A stretch of DNA of 64,000 nucleotides from Lysobacterales bacterium PRO7 (GTDB lineage: Bacteria > Pseudomonadota > Gammaproteobacteria > Xanthomonadales > Rhodanobacteraceae), in contig QWHH01000014.1 of the NCBI GenBank assembly GCA_021404785.1, positions 1 to 64,000 on the forward strand, read 5' to 3'. The stretch's first letter is position 1. Every line of letters starts with the position of its first letter. The notes beneath the pieces were generated by a model that saw nothing but the letters and a program-made list of their open reading frames with translations, made no database searches and was not told the DNA's origin. Shown here piece after piece: positions 10,849-22,394 of the stretch. Made by a program: the position numbers and the translations under genes.

Positions 10849-11104
10849 GAATTTCCCCTTGTCGAATTTGCGGGTTGCAGGATGGTGCGAGGTGTCGGGC
10901 AGAACTGACCCGCCTTGCAGCCAAAATCTTTCGCGCCGCAACATGGATTTCCACGCCGGGTTAACAGTGTCTGCGTAATATCTGCGTGGGGTGAAAGATG
11001 ACGTTGCCTTCGCGGGTCTTGAATACGTCCGCGGCATGGCTGTCCATTCGGGCCGGCAACGCGCGACATCCACTCCACGACAATTCCCAATCAGAGGACT
11101 TCCC

Positions 11105-11371
11105 ATGAAAGCTTCCGCCATCAAGAGTCTCGCACTCGCCACCGCCGTCGCCGGCTTGTTCGCGGTGACCACCGCCAGCGCGGCCAATGCCACGACCGGC
11201 GATCAAGCGCAGGTGAAATGCATGCATTCGACGTCCTGCAAGGGCTCCGGTGCGTGCAAGACAAAGGCAAATTCGTGCAAGGGCCAGAACTCGTGCAAGG
11301 GCCAGGGCTTCACCATGCAGAAAGACGCAGCCGCCTGCAAGGCAGCACAGGAAGAGGCCAAGGCCAAGTAA
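11105..11371 (+). CDS. bufA: Bufferin precursor peptide, Cys-rich (BufA)
   Basis: An 88-residue precursor with a signal peptide ending at ASA (about residues 24-26) and a mature part with six cysteines at 39, 45, 51, 58, 64 and 78. Spacings are x5, x5, x6, x5 and x13, with repeated CKG units. The start at 11105 has a GAGGA site 6 bases upstream. Bufferins are exported ribosomal peptides whose cysteines are modified by a DUF692 iron enzyme so that they bind copper; modification to thiooxazoles has been reported. The next two genes encode exactly that enzyme and its partner. The Cys pattern matches the non-DUF2282 bufferin class. Which cysteines are modified, and the metal bound, are inferred from the family. 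Confidence 0.85.
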   Translation: MKASAIKSLALATAVAGLFAVTTASAANATTGDQAQVKCMHSTSCKGSGACKTKANSCKGQNSCKGQGFTMQKDAAACKAAQEEAKAK

Positions 11372-11428
11372 GACGATTCACGAAGCGCGGCGGCCGGCGC
11401 GTGTTCGCCGGCCGTTGCCATTTCCGCC

Positions 11429-12274
11429 ATGACGAAAATTTTCGATCCGCGTTATGCCGCGCTGGGCTATGGCTTGGGCCTGCGAGCGGATCATTACGAT
11501 GCCTTGCTCGACGCACCACGCGTCGACTGGCTTGAGGCTGTTGCCGAGAATTATCTCGTGCCGGGCGGCAAGCCGCTGGATTGGTTGCGCCGCATGCGCG
11601 AGCGCTATCCGATTGTGCTGCACGGTGTGTCCCTGTCCATTGGCAGTCAGGACGCGTTGGACCTTCAATATCTTGCCGCGCTGAAGAAGCTCGCCGATTC
11701 GGTCGAACCGGCGTGGATGTCCGATCATCTGTGCTGGACCGGCGCGCATGGCCGCAACCTGCACGACCTGCTGCCCTTGCCCTATACCGAAGAGGCGATC
11801 GCGCACGTGAGCGCGCGCGTGCGCCAGGTGCAGGATTTCCTTGGTCGTCGCATCCTGCTGGAAAACGTTTCCAGCTATGTCGAATTCAAGGCCTCGACGA
11901 TGAGCGAGTGGGAATTCCTCGCCGCCATCGCCGAGCGTGCCGATTGCCTGATCCTGCTCGACGTCAACAACATCCACGTCAGCGCTAACAATCATGGATT
12001 CGATGCGCGCGACTATTTGGCCGGAATCCCGCAACGACGTGTGCAGCAATTCCATCTGGCCGGACACAGCTTTCAGAACAACCTGATCATCGACACCCAC
12101 GACCATCCCGTGCCTGACCCGGTCTGGGATTTATATGCCGATGCGGTGCGCCGCTTCGGGCCGGTGTCGACCATGATCGAGCGCGACGACAACATCCCGC
12201 CGCTGGCGGAACTCATCGCCGAACTCGATCATGCCCGCGCCATCGCCGAGCCCATTTTGCGGGCCGCCGCGTGA
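11429..12274 (+). CDS. bufB: Bufferin-modifying DUF692 iron enzyme (BufB, MNIO family)
   Basis: A 281-residue TIM-barrel protein of the DUF692/MNIO family (multinuclear non-heme iron oxidases). Family blocks are present in order: [12 protein letters not shown] at the start, HGVSLSIGS near residue 70, SDHLCW near 100, [12 protein letters not shown] near 145-156, [18 protein letters not shown] near 180, and QFHLAGH near 205. The His, Glu and Asp residues in these blocks bind the iron ions. Such enzymes oxidise cysteines in a peptide held by a partner protein. The gene follows bufA by 57 bases and overlaps bufC by 4 (ATGA at 12271). It should act in the cytoplasm before BufA is exported. Confidence 0.9.
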
Positions 12275-13065
12275 ACGCCTTCGCGTCGCTGCAGGATGTT
12301 TTCCAGCGCCGCATTCTCGATGGCGGCATCGACATGGCCATTCTCGATGGCGTGGTCGGCAATGCGATTTCGACTGCCGACGAGCGCGTCGGCGTATATG
12401 TGTACGCCTACGCCGCGCGCCTCGTCGAGGCGCTGGGCAACGATTACCTGACCTTGCGCTTTGCCGCCGGTGACGAAACCTTCGAGCAACTCTGTCACGA
12501 CTATGTGATGGCGACGCCGTCGATCCATCGCAACGTGCGCTGGTACGGGCGCGGTCTTGCGGAATTTCTTCGCACCAATGCGCCATGGACCGACACGCCG
12601 GCATTTGCGGAACTCGCTGCACTGGATTGGGCGATCGGCCTGTCGTTCGACGCGGCGGACGAAACCGGCATCTCCGAGGCGGACATCGCCACAATCCCGT
12701 TCGAGCGCTGGGGCGAAATGATCCTGGGCCTGCCAAAACACGTGCAACGCCAGACCTTCGCCTGGAACGTCGGCCAAGTGCGTCACGCCTGCGACCATGC
12801 GCAGCCGTGTCCGCAGCTGCAGCGGCTGGAGTTTCCGCAAACCTGGATCTTTTCGCGCAAGGACCTCGAGGTGCATTACCGCGCACTGGAACCCGACGAA
12901 GCGACGGCGCTGGACGCCATCGCCAATGGACGGCCGTTCGAAGCGATGTGCGAAGCGCTGTGCGACTGGCACCCGCAGGAAGCAGTCGCGCTGCGCGCCG
13001 CCGGCCTGCTCAAGGCCTGGGTCGGCAACGGGTGGATCGCGGGGGTCGAATTGCCGGCGAATTGA
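12271..13065 (+). CDS. bufC: DUF2063 partner of the bufferin modifier (BufC)
   Basis: A 264-residue protein with the DUF2063 helical N-terminal domain ([33 protein letters not shown] near residues 75-95) and the C-terminal domain that recognises precursor peptide in characterised MNIO systems. It is thought to deliver BufA to BufB. The 4-base overlap with bufB makes a one-to-one complex likely. The region after about residue 190 ([20 protein letters not shown]) fits the family's winged-helix-like end. A damaged, unrelated FAD dehydrogenase begins 30 bases after its stop codon. Confidence 0.85.
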
Positions 13066-13095: not shown

Positions 13096-14108
13096 ATGGC
13101 GACAACCCAATCGGACGTTCTGGTCATTGGTGGCGGCCTTGCCGGGATCGTGACCGCGCTGGAATTGCTGCGTGCCGGCAAGCGCGTGACGCTGGTCGAC
13201 CGCGATACGCCCGAGCGCTTCGGCGGACTCGCGCTATGGGCGTTCGGCGGCATGGCCCTGGTCGGCACGCCGCTGCAGGCACGCATGAAGATTCCCGACA
13301 CGCCGAGGCCGCGCTGCGCGACTGGATCCGCTTCGGCGAACTCGATCCTGGCGACACGTATCCCATGCAATGGGCGCGCCATTACGTTGAGCATTCCCGC
13401 GCCCGCGTGCACGACTGGTTGCTTGGCGAAGGCGTGCGCTTCATGCCCGCGGTGAACTGGGTGGAGCGCGGCCTGTACGGCGACGGCAACAGCCTGCCGC
13501 GCTACCACATCGTCTGGGGCACTTCGCGCGAACTCACGCGACGCATGATTGCGGCGATGCGCGTGGCCGATTGCGGACGCCTGACGCTGTTGCATCGCCA
13601 TCGCGTCACGCAACTGGATTACCGCGCCGGCAAGATGGCCGGTGCCATGGCAATCGACGAGGATTCCGGCGCCGAGGTGCGCATCGATGCGCCGGTCGTG
13701 GTGCTGGCGATGGGCGGCATCAACGGCAGCCATGACCAAGTGCGTGCGAACTGGCCCAAGGACAGGCCCATGCCCGCGACGATGCTCAACGGCGCCCATC
13801 CCTTTGCCGATGGCAAGCTGCATCATCTGGCCGCCGGGCTCGGCGCGTGCATCACGCACGCTGGCGAGATGTGGAATTACGCAGCCGGTTTCCCGCATCC
13901 GTATCCGCATTTCGAAGGCCACGGATTGTCGGCGATTCCGTGCAAGTCGGCGCTGTGGCTGGACCATCGCGGCCCGCACCTGATCGAGGCGCTGGTCCCC
14001 GAATCGCTTGGCGGCGCCAAGCGGCGCGTCCTGCCGTGGATGCTGCGTGCATTGCCGAGCCTGCCACCGGCGCTGGCGCGTGCAATCAAACGCAAGATTT
14101 CACCCTGA
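13096..14108 (+). pseudogene. Frameshifted, shortened FAD-dependent dehydrogenase
   Basis: The first 69 codons encode a dinucleotide-binding start (DVLVIGGGLAGIVTALELL, then VTLVDRD) ending in ARMKIPDTP. The same protein continues in another frame as EAALRDWIRFGELDPGDTY from about 13305. Restoring one base, probably a G near 13303-13306, joins the halves. Even then the product is about 337 residues, against roughly 550 for KstD-like FAD-binding dehydrogenases, and the C-terminal FAD/substrate segment is missing after about residue 310. Truncation plus frameshift suggests a decaying gene. The frameshift alone could be a sequencing error, but the truncation could not. Whether it once belonged to the buf operon is unknown. 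Confidence 0.75.
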
Positions 14109-14289: not shown

Positions 14290-15177
14290 CTAGCGGCGCT
14301 TTCTTTTGCGGGAAAGCAGGTCCTGCAGGAGTGGCAGCGGCCTGCGGCGAACCGCCGTGATCGCATAGAAATTCTCGTATACGCCTGGAATCGCGCAGTA
14401 ACGTTTCAAGCGACCCTCGCGCAATTCGTCCTGGACGACGACTTCTGGCAGCACGGTGACTGCGCCCGCGTCGCGCACGAGCAGTCGCAGCATGGCCATG
14501 TCGTCGACTTCGGCGGCTATTGCCGGCCGCACGTCATGGCGTTCGCACCAGGCGTCGAATTGGCTGCGAATATCGCTGCTTGAACCGGGTACCACGAGTC
14601 GGGAAGTCGCCAGGTCCTGCACGGGTCGAAATCGCCGACCACGCGCCAATGGGGGACCGAGAAAGCAGACGGACTGCCGGTCGATGCGGGTGCAACGCCA
14701 TGGCTTGCCGGCTTCGGCAATGACAGGACGATTGGCGAACACGACATCGAGGTTGTGCACCCTGAGGCGACCGAGCAGTTCTTCCAGCGTGCCGGAAACC
14801 ACGGACAGCCGAATCCCGGGCTTGCTGATGACGGGGCAGAGCAGGTTGTCCAGAAAGTTTCGCGACAAGGTCGCGACCGCGCCGACGCGAAGCTGCTGAA
14901 AGCGTTGCCCGCCACCACCACGGGTGGTGGCCATCAATTCCTGGCCCAGACCGAAAATCTGGTCGGCGTAATCGAGCACCGTTGCGCCGAAGTCGGTCAA
15001 TGCCAGGCTTTTGCCACTGCGATCGAAGAGGGCGTTGCCCAGGTATCCCTCAAGACGGCGGATCTGCGCCGACAGCGCCGATTGCGACACATGCAAACGG
15101 TGCGCCGCGCGCGTCAAGTGTCCCTCTTTCGCGACTTGCCAGAAGTAAAGCAGGTGCCTGAAATTCAGATTCCGCAT
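14290..15177 (-). CDS. LysR-type regulator, divergent from the dab operon
   Basis: A 295-residue LysR-family activator/repressor. The N-terminal winged helix-turn-helix is clear (FRHLLYFWQVAKEGHLTRAA, then LHVSQSALSAQIRRLE, about residues 6-43). An effector-binding domain of two alpha/beta lobes follows (LRVGAVATLSRNFL onward). The N-terminus resembles NhaR-like members. LysR genes are commonly found next to dab operons. The 95-base gap to dabB holds a perfect inverted repeat just before this gene's own start, so it probably controls both itself and the dab operon. The effector is unknown; a signal of inorganic-carbon shortage would fit. Confidence 0.88.
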   Translation of the reverse strand: MRNLNFRHLLYFWQVAKEGHLTRAAHRLHVSQSALSAQIRRLEGYLGNALFDRSGKSLALTDFGATVLDYADQIFGLGQELMATTRGGGGQRFQQLRVGAVATLSRNFLDNLLCPVISKPGIRLSVVSGTLEELLGRLRVHNLDVVFANRPVIAEAGKPWRCTRIDRQSVCFLGPPLARGRRFRPVQDLATSRLVVPGSSSDIRSQFDAWCERHDVRPAIAAEVDDMAMLRLLVRDAGAVTVLPEVVVQDELREGRLKRYCAIPGVYENFYAITAVRRRPLPLLQDLLSRKRKRR

Positions 15178-15184
15178 GTTCGCA

Positions 15185-15218
15185 AAAATAGAACAAATCG
15201 TTCACATTGTTCTATTTT
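15185..15218. promoter_or_regulatory. Perfect 12-bp inverted repeat, likely LysR operator
   Basis: Arms aaaatagaacaa (15185-15196) and ttgttctatttt (15207-15218) are exact reverse complements around a 10-base spacer. The element begins 8 bases upstream of the lysR start codon and ends 54 bases before the dabB start. A perfect AT-rich dyad in GC-rich DNA between a LysR gene and its divergent target is the expected geometry for the regulator's binding site. Confidence 0.75.
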
Positions 15219-15272
15219 ACATGCATCCTCACCATGTCGATACTGCGTGTCAATTTGCATGACAGGTGGCCG

Positions 15273-16847
15273 ATGACTCCAAATCCTGAATGGCTTGCCT
15301 GGCTTCCGGCAGGCATCTACCTCTGCGCCGCGCTGGTCGCGGCCTTCGCGCGGGCGCGCTGTTGGCACGTACTTGCCATCGCGACGCGCCTCGGCCTGGC
15401 AATGGCACTGCTGAATGTCCTGTCGTGCATGCGGGGCGCGATACAGGCGCCGCAGGGATTCGGCCTTGCCGCCGAGTCGATCGTGGCAATGCTGGTGGCA
15501 TTCCTCGGATGGATCATTGGGCGTTACGCGCAGCAGTATCTCGAGGGCGAGCCCGGACAACCGCGCTTCGCCGTCGCCTTTCTCGTCACGCTCGGGGCCG
15601 TCAGCACCGTCATTGTCAGCAGCCACCTCGCCGTCCTGATCTCGGCCTGGATCCTGAGCAGCGCCGGCCTCCACCATCTGTTGACGTTCTACCGCGAGCG
15701 CGCGGCGGCGGTCATCGTTGCGCACAAGAAATTCCTGGCCAGTCGTTTCGCCGAAGTGTTCCTCGTCGCCGCCGCCGTCCTGCTGTTCCGCCAATGGGGC
15801 ACGTTCGACATCGCGGCGATCGACATGCATGCGCAGACGGTCGCGCGCCTGCCACCGTTCGCCGCCGCGGCCGCGTTCCTGATTGCCGCGGCAGTCATCC
15901 TGAAATGCGCGCAATTGCCGCTGCATGGCTGGCTCATCCAGGTCATGGAGGCGCCGACGCCCGTGTCGGCCCTGCTGCATGCCGGCGTGGTCAACCTGGG
16001 CGGCTATGTCCTGATCCGGCTGGGGCCATTGGTCTCCGCATCGCGCGCGGCCCAGGGCCTGCTCGTCGTGGTCGGCGCCTTGACCGCTGCGCTGGCGGGA
16101 CTTGTCATGCTGACGCGCATCACGGTCAAGGTTCGACTCGCGTGGTCGACCTGTTCGCAGATGGGATTCATGGTGATGGAGTGCGGACTGGGTCTTTACG
16201 ATCTCGCGCTTTTGCACCTGGTGGCCCACGCCCTCTACAAGGCATATGCCTTCCTCGCGGCGGGGGACGCGGTGCGTGACAGCCTTGAGCGCGCGCTCGT
16301 CGCGAATTCGACTGGCGATCGCCGCAAGCCGTCATTGGCCTGGGCTCTTCTCGCCTTGCCCGCTACGGCAGTGATCGCTGCCGGATCGGCCATTGCATGG
16401 CAGTGTGCCTTCCATTTGCAGCCCCTGCCCTGGATCGCGGTGATGTGCCTCGCGTGCGGCCTGGCGACATTGTTGTGGCCGTCGTCCCCCCACCGGTCGA
16501 GGCTATCCGCAAGCGGGATGCTGGCTGCCTTGTTGGCCGCACAACTTTACTTTGCCTGGCAGTGGTTGCTGAGCGAGGGCGTCGGACTTGTTCCACCTCC
16601 GCCACGCACGGCGCTTGCCCTGTTCGCCGGCGTTGTCCTCGTGGCGCTGTACGTGGCCCAGTCCATCGTCGCACTGCGGCCGACCGGCAGTCTGGCCGTC
16701 GGATTGTACGACTGGGCCTATTCCGGGCTGTACCTGGACGAGCGCTTCACGCGACTGACGTTCCGGCTCTGGCCTGCGCGCGTGCCCGCATGCAATACCG
16801 GACACCATGTTGACCGCGAACTTGAAACCCGCCGGAGCCTCGCATGA
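15273..16847 (+). CDS. dabB: DabB, membrane subunit of DAB inorganic-carbon transporter
   Basis: A 524-residue integral membrane protein of the proton-conducting antiporter family (related to NuoL/MrpA). DabB couples cation flow to CO2 hydration by DabA. The family motif LPLHGWLIQVMEAPTPVSAL lies near residues 215-235, within about twelve to fourteen hydrophobic segments. I chose the ATG at 15273, which has aggtgg close upstream; earlier ATGs in the same frame (for example 15234) lack a site and run into the operator region. The 4-base overlap with dabA (ATGA) indicates coupled translation. Confidence 0.9.
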   Translation: MTPNPEWLAWLPAGIYLCAALVAAFARARCWHVLAIATRLGLAMALLNVLSCMRGAIQAPQGFGLAAESIVAMLVAFLGWIIGRYAQQYLEGEPGQPRFAVAFLVTLGAVSTVIVSSHLAVLISAWILSSAGLHHLLTFYRERAAAVIVAHKKFLASRFAEVFLVAAAVLLFRQWGTFDIAAIDMHAQTVARLPPFAAAAAFLIAAAVILKCAQLPLHGWLIQVMEAPTPVSALLHAGVVNLGGYVLIRLGPLVSASRAAQGLLVVVGALTAALAGLVMLTRITVKVRLAWSTCSQMGFMVMECGLGLYDLALLHLVAHALYKAYAFLAAGDAVRDSLERALVANSTGDRRKPSLAWALLALPATAVIAAGSAIAWQCAFHLQPLPWIAVMCLACGLATLLWPSSPHRSRLSASGMLAALLAAQLYFAWQWLLSEGVGLVPPPPRTALALFAGVVLVALYVAQSIVALRPTGSLAVGLYDWAYSGLYLDERFTRLTFRLWPARVPACNTGHHVDRELETRRSLA

Positions 16848-19321
16848 ACGCGTTCACCGCCGCCCAGGCTGCAATCGCGCCCTCATTTGATGCCGACATC
16901 GACGCTGCCTGCAAGACCATCGCGCCGAGCTGGCCTTTGGACCGGCAGATTGCCGTGAACCCGTACTGGGGTTTCATCGACCAACCGTTTGCGCAGGCAG
17001 CCGCCAGTCTGGGGCACCGGGTCGGGACGCCGTTCGCGCTGGATTCCGACGAATACCTGCGCGCCTGGCGCTCCGGTGAGATCGACGAGTCGTCCTTGAT
17101 GCGCGCGACCGCCGAGCACGAAATCCCGGCAACGGCCGATGACGCCGTCGATGCACTGAAATCTCCGCGGCGCAGGCTCTCCGGTCTGTCCCTGCTGTCG
17201 GATTGGATCGACCAGCAGTCCACGATGGCTGCGGGTCCCAAATGGCGTGACGTGATCACGCAGCAGGTGAGCCAATACTGCGCTTCCTATTTCGACGACC
17301 TTCAGGCCGACTGGCACCGCGACCGGCGGACCGGGCTTTTCGTTGGTTGGCGGAACGGGCTTCGCGCGGATCATGCGATAGAGCCGCTCATGCATGTCGA
17401 CGAAATACGATCGCGCGCCGGATCCGTGCCGGACACGGCAGACGCCGCCATGCGCTGGTCGCTTGCCCGGCTGGGAGTTCCACGCGCGGAGGCAGCCGAC
17501 TTCATGCAGCTCTGCCTTTGGCGGATCAACGGCTGGGCGTCGTGGTGCGCCGGTCTGGAATGGGAAGCAAGGCTGGCCGGCAAGCACGACGCGCATCTTC
17601 GCGAGCTGCTTGCGATCCGGGTTTGCTGGGAGGCGCTGCTACACGATGGCGGCGCCGCCGCCGAATCCGCCGGAGGCCTGTGGCACGAGGCATGGTCGCA
17701 AGCACGCCGCAACAACACCGTGACCTCGGGTGCATGGGACCGGGTCTGGCAACGCGCCCACGAAATCGCCTACCAGGATCGCCTCATCCATCTCCTCGAC
17801 ACGGCCGGTGCGGGGCCGGATCGCCAGGCGCTTCCGCCGCGGCCCGCAGCGCAGGTCACGTTCTGCATCGACGTCCGCTCGGAGCGCTTCCGTCGCGCGC
17901 TGGAGCACGTCGATGACGAAATCGAGACGCTCGGATTTGCCGGATTCTTCGGTTTGCCGATACGCTTCACGTCGATCGGCACCCGCCTGCCACGCCCGCT
18001 GCTTCCGGGGCTGCTGGCACCATCGATCGAAGCGATCGAATCGACCGGCAGCGCATCCGGCGATGCGGCTCTAGTCCGGCAGCGCAGCGGAAATCTCAGC
18101 GCAAGAAGCGCATGGCAACCATTCCTGCGCACCCCATCCGGTGCGTTTTCGCTGGTGGAAACCATCGGGCTGGGCTATGCCGCATCGATCCTTCGCCGTC
18201 ACTTTGGCGCGGAAACGTCGCCGCTCCGGTGGTTTGGCCTGGACGCGAAACGGGCCGGCGGATTGCGACCGCGGCTCTGCATGGAAGGCAACGATGCCGT
18301 CGCGCGCAAGGCGGATCTGGTCGCCGGCATCCTGCGCGCGATGAGTCTGACTCGCCGGTTCGCGCGCCTTCTCGTGTTCGTGGGACACGGCAGCCAGAGC
18401 GCCAACAATCCGCAGGCGGCCGCGCTCGATTGCGGCGCCTGCGGCGGACAAACCGGCGAGATCAACGCGCGCATCCTCGCCGAACTCATCAACGATACTT
18501 CCGTTCGCAAGGCGCTGGCCGATCGCGGCATCGAAGTGCCGGACGATACGGTGGCCGTCGGCGCCCTGCACAACACGACGACCGATGAAGTGCGACTGTT
18601 CGATGTCGAACGGGTGCCGGAGAGCCACAGACGCGAGTTGCAGCATTTGCAACGCCGTTTCGAAGACGCGGGCCACCGCACACGCGCGGAGCGCGCGCCG
18701 AGTCTCGGTCTGGATGCAAACTGCAGCCGGCCCGAGCGCCTGCTCAAGCGAATCCGGCGACGCGCCTCGGACTGGGCGCAGACGCGGCCCGAATGGGGGT
18801 TGGCCGGCAATGCCGCGCTCATCGTCGCGCCGCGCTCGCGCACGCGCGGGCTCGCGTTGGACGGACGCAGCTTCCTGCACGACTACGCCTGGGCACACGA
18901 TCGCGATGGCAAGGTGCTTGAACTCATCATGACCGCGCCGATGGTGGTCGCCCACTGGATCAACATGCAGTACTACGCCTCGACCGTCGATCCCGAACGC
19001 CTAGGCAGCGGCAACAAGGTCCTGCACAACGTGGTCTGCGGACGGATCGGCGTCTTCGAGGGCAATACCGGAGACTTGCGGATCGGGTTGGCGCGCCAGT
19101 CCGTCCATGACGGCTCGCGGTGGATGCACGCGCCATTGCGGCTTTCCGTGTTCATCGACGCGCCGGCAGGGATGATCGAGCGCGTGCTCGAGGCGCACTC
19201 GACGGTTCGGAACCTTGTCGTCAACCAATGGCTGTACCTGTTCCGATTCGCCGATCGCGGAATCGAATGGTTCCGCCGTGGGCGCTGGCAGGCGTGGGCG
19301 CCGGGAAACAGCTGCGCATGA
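16844..19321 (+). CDS. dabA: DabA, zinc carbonic-anhydrase-like subunit of DAB complex (DUF2309)
   Basis: An 825-residue soluble or peripheral protein resembling a beta-carbonic anhydrase, which hydrates CO2 to bicarbonate in the cytoplasm in a vectorial manner with DabB. The zinc-site residues are all present: C341 and D343 in FCIDVRSE, H515 in FVGHGSQSANN and C530 in ALDCGACGG. They correspond to C351, D353, H524 and C539 of the Halothiobacillus protein, and the 15-residue H-to-C spacing is identical. Length is typical. It overlaps dabB and the following cysD by 4 bases each. A functional pump is expected. Confidence 0.93.
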   Translation: MNAFTAAQAAIAPSFDADIDAACKTIAPSWPLDRQIAVNPYWGFIDQPFAQAAASLGHRVGTPFALDSDEYLRAWRSGEIDESSLMRATAEHEIPATADDAVDALKSPRRRLSGLSLLSDWIDQQSTMAAGPKWRDVITQQVSQYCASYFDDLQADWHRDRRTGLFVGWRNGLRADHAIEPLMHVDEIRSRAGSVPDTADAAMRWSLARLGVPRAEAADFMQLCLWRINGWASWCAGLEWEARLAGKHDAHLRELLAIRVCWEALLHDGGAAAESAGGLWHEAWSQARRNNTVTSGAWDRVWQRAHEIAYQDRLIHLLDTAGAGPDRQALPPRPAAQVTFCIDVRSERFRRALEHVDDEIETLGFAGFFGLPIRFTSIGTRLPRPLLPGLLAPSIEAIESTGSASGDAALVRQRSGNLSARSAWQPFLRTPSGAFSLVETIGLGYAASILRRHFGAETSPLRWFGLDAKRAGGLRPRLCMEGNDAVARKADLVAGILRAMSLTRRFARLLVFVGHGSQSANNPQAAALDCGACGGQTGEINARILAELINDTSVRKALADRGIEVPDDTVAVGALHNTTTDEVRLFDVERVPESHRRELQHLQRRFEDAGHRTRAERAPSLGLDANCSRPERLLKRIRRRASDWAQTRPEWGLAGNAALIVAPRSRTRGLALDGRSFLHDYAWAHDRDGKVLELIMTAPMVVAHWINMQYYASTVDPERLGSGNKVLHNVVCGRIGVFEGNTGDLRIGLARQSVHDGSRWMHAPLRLSVFIDAPAGMIERVLEAHSTVRNLVVNQWLYLFRFADRGIEWFRRGRWQAWAPGNSCA

Positions 19322-20268
19322 GCATCGAACGCATCGGTGACCGCGTCCCTGGCAGCACGCAGGACGCGGCTGCGCTGTCCAACCTGGAGCGACTGGAAGC
19401 CGAGGCCATCCACATTCTCCGCGAAGCGATCGTGCAATCGAAAAAGCCCGTGCTGCTGTTTTCCGGCGGCAAGGACTCGACGATCCTGGCGCACCTGGTG
19501 CGCCGGGCGTTTGCCCCGGCGTCGCCGCCATTGCCGCTGCTGCACATCGATTCCAGCTGGGAATTCCGCTCTTTGCTCGAGTTTCGCGACCGGCTCGCCC
19601 GGCAGCTCGGGTTCGAACTGATCGTTCGCTGCAATGATGCCGGCCGCGCCGCCGGCATCAATCCCTTCGAACACGGCGACCATTACACCACGGTCATGCG
19701 CACGGAGCCCTTGAAATCGGCGCTTGACGAGGGCGGGTTCGACGTGATCGTCGGCGGGGCGCGGCGCGACGAAGAGCGTTCCCGCGCCAAGGAACGCATC
19801 GTTTCGGTCCGCGGCGCGAATCACGGCTGGGATCCACGACGGCAGCGACCCGAATTGTGGAGCGTGTACAACCTGCGCCTGCGAAGGGGGGAGACCGCCC
19901 GGGTCTTTCCGATCTCGAACTGGACCGAACTCAACGTGCTGCACTACGCACTGTGGCGGCGCATCGATCTCGCGCCGTTGTACTTCGCCCATCGTCGCGC
20001 GACGGTGGAACGCGACGGTGCGCTCATCGTGGTCGATGATCCGAAGCGCATGCGTTTTCGCCCGGGAGAATCCGTCGCCGAGAAGACCGTCCGGTTTCGA
20101 ACGCTGGGTTGCTGGCCCGTCACCGGCGCGATCGAGTCCGGCGCGACGGATCTGGCCCAGGTGCTGCGCGAGACGCAATCGGCTTCGCGATCCGAGCGGC
20201 AAGGCCGGATCGCCGACCAGGACGCCGGCGGATCGCTCGAACGGCAAAAACGCGAGGGCTATTTCTGA
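19318..20268 (+). CDS. cysD: CysD-type sulfate adenylyltransferase subunit 2 in the dab operon
   Basis: A 316-residue PP-loop ATP pyrophosphatase with the full CysD pattern: SGGKDS at residues 49-54, INPFEHGDHYTTVMRTEPLK, GGARRDEERSRAKERI, WDPRRQRPELW, FPISNWTE, RFRTLGCWPVTGAIES and the usual YF end. CysD transfers AMP from ATP to sulfate, making APS, normally with the GTPase CysN. The PP-loop reads SGGKDS where typical CysD has SIGKDS. No cysN, cysC or cysH is in the window, so this copy either uses a CysN encoded elsewhere or has been recruited to another job. The start at 19318 overlaps dabA by 4 bases; the longer frame upstream shadows dabA. Confidence 0.9.
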   Translation: MSIERIGDRVPGSTQDAAALSNLERLEAEAIHILREAIVQSKKPVLLFSGGKDSTILAHLVRRAFAPASPPLPLLHIDSSWEFRSLLEFRDRLARQLGFELIVRCNDAGRAAGINPFEHGDHYTTVMRTEPLKSALDEGGFDVIVGGARRDEERSRAKERIVSVRGANHGWDPRRQRPELWSVYNLRLRRGETARVFPISNWTELNVLHYALWRRIDLAPLYFAHRRATVERDGALIVVDDPKRMRFRPGESVAEKTVRFRTLGCWPVTGAIESGATDLAQVLRETQSASRSERQGRIADQDAGGSLERQKREGYF

Positions 20269-20550
20269 ATGAGCGATTCCAGCATGAAAACAGAACTCGC
20301 CACTTGTGAGGCCAGGGTCCGCCTGGCAGAAGAAAACATTGCCTGGATACTGGATCGTCCCGCGTTCAGCGGGTGGCTCAAGGACGCGTTGGGCGGTGCG
20401 ATCGTGCGCGATCCCGAGCGCGTGGCCAACGATCTGGAGATTCTTGCCCACGTGCTTCGCGGCTGGACCACGGCGCGCATCGACCGGGACCTGCTGCAGC
20501 CGCGCGACGCGAATGAAAGGGCTTGCGCGAATTCCGGCTCGGGAGGATAG
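20269..20550 (+). CDS. Small unknown protein, last gene of the dabBA-cysD operon
   Basis: A 93-residue, mostly helical, charged protein that I do not recognise. Residues 7-80 read as two or three amphipathic helices (CEARVRLAEENIAWILDRPA; RVANDLEILAHVLRGW), followed by a short disordered tail. There is no signal peptide, membrane helix or metal motif. The ATG directly follows the cysD stop codon (tgaatg), so it is almost certainly co-translated with cysD. An adaptor for CysD or for the DAB complex is an attractive idea with no direct evidence. Confidence 0.65.
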   Translation: MSDSSMKTELATCEARVRLAEENIAWILDRPAFSGWLKDALGGAIVRDPERVANDLEILAHVLRGWTTARIDRDLLQPRDANERACANSGSGG

Positions 20551-20683: not shown

Positions 20684-21667
20684 TCAGGATTGCGGCTGAA
20701 CCTCTTCCGCGGCAGCTCGCCGGAGTCGATCGGCGATCGCGCTGCCCAAGCCGCGCTCGTCCGGCAAGGTCGCGAATATGAGATCACAGCGTGCGTTGTC
20801 GAAATCCCGGAACCACCGGTACAGCCGATGCGCGTACTCCTCTAGCGCGGACGGCGCCGTAACCGCCAGCATTCGAGCGTCGGCCTTCAGCACGATTCCC
20901 TGTGGCGCGATCACTCCGACCGTCAATCCCCGGGCCAGCGCGGCTTCGACCGACGCAGCGAGGTCTGCAGGTTGCGACAGCGTGACCTTCGCCCGAGGGG
21001 AATAATGCCGCGGGTGCTGGCCCGGAACGCGCGGTGCATCCGGGCGTTCGCCGCCGAGCTCGCATCCGGTCAGGCTCTCGAGCGCCTCGCGGGTGATTCC
21101 GCCAGGACGCAGCAACGCGGGTCGAGGTCCGGAAAGATCCAGGATCGTCGACTCGACTCCTACCGTGCAGTCGCCGCCGTCGAGGACGTAATCGACGCCG
21201 CCGGATGCGGCGAACATCTCGCGAACATCGTCGGCACGGGTCGGACTGACGGCGCCAAAGGGATTCGCCGACGGCGCGGCGATCCCGCCGTCAAACGCTT
21301 CGAGCAAGTCCAAGGTGACCGGGTGCCGCGGAACGCGGACGGCAACCGTATCCTGGCCGCCAGTGATCAAAGGAGACACGTCGGCAGCGCGGCGCAGCAC
21401 CAGGGTGAGCGGACCCGGCCAGAATCGGCGCGCCAGATCCCATGCGATCGGCGGCACATCGCGCGCCCAGCCTTCGAGGCTGGCAGCGCTGGCAATGTGC
21501 ACGATCAGGGGATGCCGGGCTGGCCGGCCCTTGACCTCGAAGATGCGCCTTATCGCCGCTTCGTTCCGCGCATCGGCAGCCAATCCGTAAACGGTTTCCG
21601 TCGGCACCGCCACCAGTCCGCCATTGCGCAGCACGCGTGCGGCATGCGCCACTGCTTCGTCGCGCAT
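20684..21667 (-). CDS. sua5: L-threonylcarbamoyladenylate synthase (Sua5, long form)
   Basis: The enzyme makes threonylcarbamoyl-AMP from threonine, bicarbonate and ATP for the t6A37 modification of ANN-decoding tRNAs. At 327 residues it has an N-terminal YrdC domain (VPTETVYGLAADA, FEVKGRPARHPLIVHI, FWPGPLTLVL, APSANPFG) and the C-terminal Sua5 domain after a linker (PGQHPRHYSP near residue 215). It starts 1 base after the folE stop, so the two are one transcription unit. Bicarbonate is a substrate, and a DAB carbon pump lies just upstream on the other strand; a functional link is possible but unproved. Confidence 0.9.
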   Translation of the reverse strand: MRDEAVAHAARVLRNGGLVAVPTETVYGLAADARNEAAIRRIFEVKGRPARHPLIVHIASAASLEGWARDVPPIAWDLARRFWPGPLTLVLRRAADVSPLITGGQDTVAVRVPRHPVTLDLLEAFDGGIAAPSANPFGAVSPTRADDVREMFAASGGVDYVLDGGDCTVGVESTILDLSGPRPALLRPGGITREALESLTGCELGGERPDAPRVPGQHPRHYSPRAKVTLSQPADLAASVEAALARGLTVGVIAPQGIVLKADARMLAVTAPSALEEYAHRLYRWFRDFDNARCDLIFATLPDERGLGSAIADRLRRAAAEEVQPQS

Positions 21668-21668
21668 G

Positions 21669-22394
21669 TCAGGTTGCGTTCCGCGGCAGCAATGACAGGA
21701 ATTCGCCGCGCAGCGACGAATCGGTCAGGAATCTGCCGCGCATGACGCTGTTCACCATCCTGGACTGATCGTCCTTCACGCCTCGCCAGCGCATGCAGTA
21801 GTGGTCGGCTTCCAGCACCACCGCAATCCCGTCCGGTTCGAGGCGCTGCTCCAGCAAATTGGCGACTTGGCTGACCGCCTCCTCCTGGATCTGCGGGCGA
21901 CTCATGATCCAGTTGACCAGCCGGGCGTACTTCGACAAGCCGATCAGGTTCGACCCGGCGCTCGGAATCACGCCGATCCAAATGCGCCCGATGATCGGGC
22001 ACAGGTGATGCGAGCAAGCACTGCGTACGCTCAGGGGGCCGACGATCATCAGTTCGTTCAGCCGCTCGACGTTCGGGAACTCGGTGACGGCGGGTGCATG
22101 CTCGTAGCGTCCGCAGAACAGCTCGCGCACGAACATCTTGGCCAAGCGTTTGGCGGTATCCCGCGAGTTGTGGTCGCTGTCCACATCGATGACGAGTGCG
22201 CGCAGCATTTCCCGTGCCCTGGCCTCGACTTCGCGCTCGATTTCCTCTATGTCACCGAGTTCAAGGTGGTCCGCGATGTTGTCGTTGGCGTGAAAGCGTG
22301 CGCCCGAAGCTTTCAGGCGCTCGCGAATTCGCTCTGACGCGGGCATCGAGCCGAATTGCCTGAGGCAGGGTGCTTCGCGCATGGTTTGGAGCAT
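21669..22394 (-). CDS. folE: GTP cyclohydrolase I (FolE)
   Basis: Converts GTP to dihydroneopterin triphosphate, the first step of folate and pterin synthesis. The 241-residue protein shows the type I signature: MIVGPLSVRSACSHHLCPIIG, with the zinc ligands in CSHH, then NLIGLSKYARLVNW and QIQEEAVSQVANLLEQRLEP. Another ligand Cys lies near the C-terminus in DHYCM. It is therefore the zinc-dependent form. The start is uncertain: 22394 is used, but 22382 and 22346 are alternatives, and no strong ribosome site marks any of them. It is co-transcribed with sua5. Confidence 0.9.
   Translation of the reverse strand: MLQTMREAPCLRQFGSMPASERIRERLKASGARFHANDNIADHLELGDIEEIEREVEARAREMLRALVIDVDSDHNSRDTAKRLAKMFVRELFCGRYEHAPAVTEFPNVERLNELMIVGPLSVRSACSHHLCPIIGRIWIGVIPSAGSNLIGLSKYARLVNWIMSRPQIQEEAVSQVANLLEQRLEPDGIAVVLEADHYCMRWRGVKDDQSRMVNSVMRGRFLTDSSLRGEFLSLLPRNAT

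Follow-up and report, generated by a model that had tools for sequence, protein, structure and literature searches.

Why is a cysD gene, a relative of the small subunit of the CysDN ATP sulfurylase, joined without a gap to the genes of an inorganic-carbon pump, and why does no cysN adjoin it? The genes concerned lie as follows in the window, by which we mean the whole stretch of 64,000 nucleotides that was analysed; the cysD copy behind dabA is called cysD2.

14290..15177, minus strand: LysR-type regulator gene, divergent from dabB
15273..16847, plus strand: dabB, antiporter-like membrane subunit; Pfam PF00361 (Proton_antipo_M), E 2.9e-37
16844..19321, plus strand: dabA, inorganic-carbon pump subunit; Pfam PF10070, E 2e-261
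19318..20268, plus strand: cysD2, CysN-free CysD paralogue, 316 aa; SGGKDS PP-loop, E82/R128
20269..20550, plus strand: orf93, small protein family of DAB operons, predicted to be helical
20684..21667, minus strand: sua5 (threonylcarbamoyl-AMP synthase), convergent with the operon
21669-22394, minus strand: folE (GTP cyclohydrolase I, PF01227), adjoining sua5 near the dab operon

A dab operon with two extra coupled genes

A sequence-only reading had described dabB-dabA-cysD-orf93 as coupled at every junction, and the gene coordinates together with the shared stop and start bases bear this out: an ATGA is common to dabB and dabA, a second ATGA at 19318-19321 is common to dabA and cysD2, and the TGA of cysD2 is followed by the ATG of orf93 with zero gap. 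The pump is recognised by DabA (PF10070) adjoining DabB (Proton_antipo_M), and the DabA translation contains the motifs CIDVRSE and GHG...DCGACGG, which we take to be the zinc site. The adjacent subunits and the divergent LysR gene are shared with the known DAB pump (DabA/DabB; MpsAB), from which the operon differs by the extra coupled genes cysD2 and orf93. The top NCBIfam model for the LysR protein is NhaR, below its cut-off (139 of 219 bits), and a lysR homologue lies near dabB also in the 23 DabA regions from other genomes of the order. A scan for promoters and terminators gave a single weak promoter-like site at 15216-15244, with 0.7 expected by chance. The product of the convergent sua5 is a bicarbonate user, and sua5 adjoins dab in several relatives too. 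Although DAB pumps are widespread, little is known, to our knowledge, about their partners; our literature search found no paper joining dabA/dabB (DUF2309) with cysD or sulfate adenylyltransferase.

A complete ATP sulfurylase elsewhere in the genome

The absence of CysN that had been noted for this locus is true of the 64-kb window but not of the genome (2.81 Mb, 99.5% complete). The suggested check for cysN and cysC led to a second cysD on contig C4 (C4:241803-242699), 54% identical to the window CysD and directly before cysN (C4:242729-243913, 578.9 bits), the host CysN being a 604-residue fusion with APS kinase. Loss of cysN from the whole genome is thus ruled out by this cysD-cysNC pair. 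The same genome has one copy of orf93 and two YrdC-domain genes, one of them the window sua5, and a search for DUF6671 (PF20376) gave no matches in it. As a search for RuBisCO likewise yielded zero matches, the host is without sign of RuBisCO autotrophy, and the DAB pump most likely feeds biosynthetic carboxylations. One beta-carbonic anhydrase gene is present, so that DAB is not the host's sole candidate for CO2 hydration.

A CysD type without adjoining cysN, mostly with dabA

DabA is encoded by at least 24 of 399 genomes of the order (the contig of one, L061, ends inside dabA), and among the matches listed cysD lies directly behind dabA in 5 of the 24, window included. The other four were found among the 23 DabA regions from other genomes, three in one genus (L050-L052) and one in another (L054), and their CysDs are 65-66% identical to that of the window. 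A scan for CysD with one genome per species, from which the best 80 loci were analysed as a sample, divided these into 58 with cysN adjoining, none of which has dabA, and 22 that lack it; among the latter, dabA lies upstream in 18, SbtA is present in one (L079) and three have neither. In a search of the phylum (398 genomes, E 1e-105), three of the best 29 new loci among the matches examined were of the CysD2 type: L215 with dabA, L214 after icd and L213 after ccrA, the crotonyl-CoA carboxylase gene; icd and ccrA encode enzymes releasing or using CO2. On plasmids, CysD at more than 60% identity occurs in three of at least 355 records with a CysD match, all three with dabA, and thus in 3 of the DabA plasmid records, of which there are at least 123. 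An arrangement peculiar to one genome is therefore ruled out by the loci from the order, from named genomes and from Mesorhizobium and Methylocystis plasmids.

The 33 CysD2 loci collected in this way (the window, four from the order, 22 from named genomes, three from plasmids and three from the phylum) belong to Alpha- and Gammaproteobacteria. They carry dabA in 27 cases, sbtA in one and neither in five, and cysN adjoins in none, whereas cysN adjoins in 59 of 60 ordinary CysD loci, the remaining one (L116) being cut by a contig end, and dabA or sbtA is found in none of the 60. The contrast in context gives a Fisher value of 5e-19, but the relatives are not independent of each other and the loci were picked by CysD similarity. 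Further carbon genes are seen in a minority of the 33 loci, namely ccrA in five, sua5 in four, bioD in three (all Methylocystis) and icd in one; in three loci (L067, L075, L090) the search for carbon-related genes came out empty. A gamma-carbonic-anhydrase-like gene was present in 4 of the 60 ordinary cysDN loci versus 0 of the 33 CysD2 loci.

The conservation of cysD behind dabA, to be looked for according to the earlier reading, is thus found for the CysD2 type. A complete cysDN operon elsewhere, combined with rare linkage to dabA, had been named as evidence against a special role; the operon is there, and the linkage is mixed, being the rule when counted from CysD2 (27/33) but the exception when counted from dabA in the order (the 5 of at least 24 given above).

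A tree of 86 CysDs (27 CysN-free and 59 CysN-adjacent; quick search, no bootstrap) placed the 59 CysN-adjacent proteins on one side of a branch with SH-aLRT 96. The dab-linked L103 branches basally on the CysN side, with a long branch, and the tree thus does not show that the CysN-free proteins arose once.

CysN over the family cut-off was found in 23 of 26 CysD2 genomes among the matches listed (in G401 only just), whereas no match reaches the cut-off in three metagenome-assembled genomes, which are incomplete. As CysN is encoded elsewhere in most CysD2 genomes and in that of the window, pairing of CysD2 with CysN is possible, and CysD2 might be a spare ATP sulfurylase subunit that joins the chromosomal CysNC and boosts sulfate activation whenever the dab genes are switched on. 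Its separate place in the tree, the lack of cysN in all 33 loci and the three genomes without a CysN match, incomplete as these are, argue against such a role, and the residues described below make us regard it as unlikely.

Residues that set CysD2 apart

By its full-length profile the window protein is a CysD, scoring over the cut-off on three NCBIfam models: TIGR02039 (402.6 bits, cut-off 396.6), PRK12563 (429.2, cut-off 413) and PRK05253 (393.4, cut-off 195). Some relatives fall just under cut-offs (L077 on two models, L079 on one). On the two stricter models five CysD2s reach 396-450 bits, two of them just below a cut-off, two ordinary CysDs reach 475-514 bits, and L103 lies between at 458-474. 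With CysD of the CysDN ATP sulfurylase (1ZUN) CysD2 shares full-length homology, the SxGKDS PP-loop, GGARRDEE, RFRTLGC and the C-terminal GYF; it differs in lacking an adjoining cysN and in standing apart in the tree.

Alignment of 27 CysN-free with 59 CysN-adjacent proteins showed the same catalytic motifs and a switch at several positions. SxGKDS, GGARRDE and RFR.LGC are kept in at least 96% of both sets, which would suit a spare subunit. Residues were counted over 119 proteins (32 CysN-free and 87 others), the window being left out. Residues 82 and 128 are E and R in the window and in all 32 comparison CysD2s, but K and K in 86 of the 87 others, and residue 79 is S in 32/32 versus T in 83/87. 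This fixed exchange of two lysines speaks against a spare subunit. The K82/K128 signature, which the window CysD2 lacks, was derived here and is not a published criterion. The lone exception among the 87 (L205) has D82/L128 with cysN adjoining, indicating that these two residues alone do not decide CysN pairing.

The PP-loop SGGKDS of the window protein (residues 49-54), singled out earlier from the letters, proved to be a remark to the point: residue 50 is A in 23, G in 8 and I in one (L103) of the 32 comparison CysD2s, whereas it is V in 48, I in 38 and C in one of the 87 other CysDs. L103 has the S79/E82/R128/L218 set, yet reads like an ordinary CysD at most of the other switch positions, a mosaic which suggests that these four changes were the earliest. 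In an alignment with a PAPS reductase chain (6vpu), residue 128 falls on the lysine of the KVEP motif, presumably an active-site residue of APS reductase. Judged from the alignment, CysD2 is probably an adenylyl-transferase whose acceptor site has been remodelled, residues 82 and 128 being putative parts of that site.

Gene order behind dabA and the orf93 family

The adjacency of dabA and cysD in the window is more than chance. An order of dabA directly followed by cysD2 recurs in other families, and 13 of the 27 dabA-linked loci, the window among them, offer cysD2 an in-frame start with a four-base overlap at the dabA stop. The plasmids of Mesorhizobium sp. INR15 and M. terrae are annotated with this very overlap. 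A four-base overlap also joins the SbtA stop of L079 to the GTG start of cysD2. Other genes may intervene between dabA and cysD2: sua5 in L070 and L072, bioD-ccrA in L071, L091 and L160, and a DUF6671 gene in L103.

Orf93 has no match over a cut-off in Pfam, NCBIfam or PHROGs. A profile iterated on 104 loci (18,581 frames) gathered eight members (E 2.5e-31 or below, the profile being built from those members), each of which follows dabA within a dab cluster, while the ordinary CysD loci have none; the members share the core RIxWVLxHPxMSxWLKDALRxAxxRDPxxLxNDLExLxHLL; a ninth match, at E 0.004, was taken as chance. Over 299 genomes of the order the search returned, among the matches listed, the window and a dab-linked copy in G184 (E 2e-7), and two further matches near E 0.005 were taken as chance. 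Three plasmid loci (L159, L161, L163) bring the orf93 loci to 11, which have dabA in 11, cysD2 in 8 and DUF6671 in 8; the loci were fetched via dabA, cysD or DUF6671 and the counts are biased accordingly. In six of the eight loci with both, a DUF6671 protein of about 290 residues is encoded between cysD2 and orf93, the window and L077 being the two without it, and the order dabA-cysD2-DUF6671-orf93 is repeated across loci.

The 93-residue protein that had been called unknown and coupled to cysD thus belongs, as judged from its conservation, to a real small protein family downstream of dabA, but its tie to dabA is somewhat closer than that to cysD, and Orf93 as an obligate CysD partner is unsupported by the same, biased, counts. 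The predicted model of Orf93 consists of helices only (mean pLDDT 75.5, pTM 0.49), and a fold search with it against the PDB gave no match at E 0.001. In Halothiobacillus, DAB1 is made of three subunits and includes a small transmembrane protein, according to the accessible part of its description (PMC13144422).

DUF6671, SbtA and islands of metabolic genes

Our literature search found no paper on DUF6671. Its predicted model (mean pLDDT 83.3) resembles YjjX (1u14; Foldseek E 1e-4, TM 0.36 by query and 0.57 by target) and more weakly ITPases and CinA; the likeness to YjjX is modest, and in the model a region like YjjX/ITPase is combined with an end that is rich in Cys and resembles a zinc ribbon. 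DUF6671 occurs in at least 11 of 399 genomes of the order, seven of these with DabA versus 24 of 399 with DabA overall, among the matches listed. It lies beside icd in four genomes without a DabA match among those listed and in G344, there in a copy away from dabA, and four of these five loci (L154-L158) have sua5 or pyrC. All 12 plasmid records with DUF6671 were examined, and within about 12 kb eight have dabA and four have sbtA.

SbtA is encoded in at least 72 of 385 genomes. We examined 70 loci from 70 genomes, 30 with flanks of 1.5 kb and 40 with flanks reaching 2.5 kb at most, contig ends having shortened some; six rows were left out, four of them for a second copy in a genome and two, G919 and G839, for a partial match. 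None of the 70 loci carries cysD2, and two, from one genus, carry DUF6671. With L079 as the single SbtA-cysD2 case, SbtA as a general partner of cysD2 is unsupported.

The families that recur around DAB or SbtA are sua5, ilvD, pyrC, icd, bioD, ccrA and TerC. Zinc starvation or alkaline pH was considered as a possible theme for neighbouring spare genes such as pyrC, TerC and folE. A Methylocystis rosea plasmid (L160, 3306-12403) has dabB-dabA-bioD-ccrA-cysD2 followed by a biotin-synthesis aminotransferase gene, a Fuscovulum plasmid has dabB-dabA-DUF6671-ilvD, a Nocardia plasmid has dab, sua5 and DUF6671, and a Mycolicibacterium plasmid has dab, carbonic anhydrase, DUF6671 and TerC; two plasmids of Arthrobacter sp. 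U41 have SbtA, DUF6671 and ilvD. Three further DAB plasmids examined have none of cysD2, DUF6671 and orf93. Such islands raise the thought that cysD2 and orf93 are bystanders that ride with dabA among spare metabolic genes and do not act on carbon uptake. The linked genes do vary, several islands are on plasmids, and cysD2 is carried by a minority of dabA loci; yet its place directly after dabA in several families, with the four-base overlap available in 13 of 27 loci, the repeated gene order and the substitutions fixed throughout the CysD2 type make mere travelling together improbable.

On the conjugative Pseudomonas plasmid pSDM007 (L169, 15698-29721) an island combines housekeeping-type gene copies, among them an ordinary cysD-cysN pair, raiA, TerC, pyrC, ilvD and sua5, with nhaR, DUF6671 and the bicarbonate transporter gene sbtA.

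The genes ilvD and sua5 recur beside DAB, SbtA or DUF6671, and they appear also in Leptospirillum sp. CF-1, where, in the part of the report available (PMC9080137), the 'och' operon consists of dabB, dabA, a hypothetical gene and ilvD, the four being co-transcribed, with sua5 adjoining and not co-transcribed. The gene order resembles that of the window, in that dabB-dabA is followed by a hypothetical and a metabolic gene, and differs from it in having ilvD, with no cysD described in that part of the report. Since the och operon is induced 7.8-23.5 fold after 30 min of chromate (PMC9080137, as far as available), CysD2 could be a CysN-free ATP sulfurylase proper for oxyanion or oxidative stress, for example chromate versus sulfate, with DAB in the same response. 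The lack of cysD in the described operon and the alteration in CysD2 of two lysines fixed in ordinary CysD weaken this reading, and the redox view of DabA (PMC9080137) differs from the carbonic-anhydrase-like structure of DAB2 (PMC13144422), both sources being taken from their accessible parts; we hold it for somewhat less likely than a spare subunit.

A proposed accessory of inorganic-carbon operons

The separation in the tree, the missing cysN neighbour, the linkage to dab, the intact ATP-handling motifs and the K82E/K128R exchange are direct observations. Based on these we propose, with a probability of about 0.55, that the gene behind dabA encodes a CysD paralogue, CysD2, which works independently of CysN and is dedicated to inorganic-carbon operons, above all DAB, as their accessory. 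As the same arrangement occurs in unrelated bacteria, CysD2 probably assists the uptake of inorganic carbon as an accessory enzyme that has gone unrecognised. The strongest counterpoints are that most sampled DabA genomes are without cysD2, that CysN is found, among the matches listed, in most CysD2 genomes and that one island has ordinary cysDN. Further points against it are the single SbtA-cysD2 case, the three CysD2 loci without carbon-related genes, the gamma-carbonic-anhydrase-like gene seen in ordinary loci alone, the D82/L128 pair of L205 and the place of L103 in the tree.

In the mechanism that we envisage, CysD2 would have left the CysDN ATP sulfurylase and become dedicated to inorganic-carbon operons. 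It would bind ATP and transfer AMP without the GTP drive from CysN, at an acceptor site that, to judge from residues 82 and 128, may carry less positive charge than the one in CysD; candidate acceptors are sulfate, (bi)carbonate and other small anions. The LysR gene would control the operon, turning it on at inorganic-carbon shortage, and translational coupling would let CysD2 be made together with the pump, close to which it may work with Orf93, and DUF6671 where present, replacing CysN as partner.

Of the two proposals made for this locus at the outset, a new enzyme on the CysD fold fits better, as CysD2 has no adjoining cysN and carries the fixed double lysine change. The link between bicarbonate status and sulfate activation is less likely; the ordinary cysDN near DUF6671, pyrC, ilvD, sua5 and sbtA on the Pseudomonas plasmid speaks for it, as for the spare subunit.

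The boldest reading is that CysD2 adenylylates not sulfate but (bi)carbonate, or a carbonate-derived small anion, from the pump. An acceptor of lower charge would agree with the change of K82/K128 to E/R, bicarbonate is what the operon supplies, and enzymes making or using CO2 are encoded in a minority of CysD2 loci; with context and the lysine exchange as its sole basis, we give this reading little chance. Orf93 and DUF6671 would then hold or use the activated intermediate, and the cell would have a new route to trap inorganic carbon.

CysD2 genes are annotated as 'sulfate adenylyltransferase subunit CysD', for example in three plasmid records including those of Mesorhizobium and Methylocystis rosea, a name that may mislead, since no cysN adjoins cysD2 and two lysines are altered in its product. 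Should CysD2 act in carbon uptake, DAB would gain an enzyme and one or two uncharacterised proteins, and whether DAB operons do more than pump in hosts without RuBisCO would become directly testable.

Other genes upstream of the operon

Two further observations concern the plus strand of the window ahead of the LysR gene. At 10991-13065 the gene of a Cys-rich small protein precedes those of an MbnB/TglH/ChrH-family enzyme (PF05114) and of a DUF2063 protein, an order that looks like a metal-binding RiPP locus, presumably bufferin-like. At 13096-14108 an FAD-binding dehydrogenase-like gene is seemingly split over two frames, with stops in the first frame, and the split seems to be a frameshift or a sequencing error.
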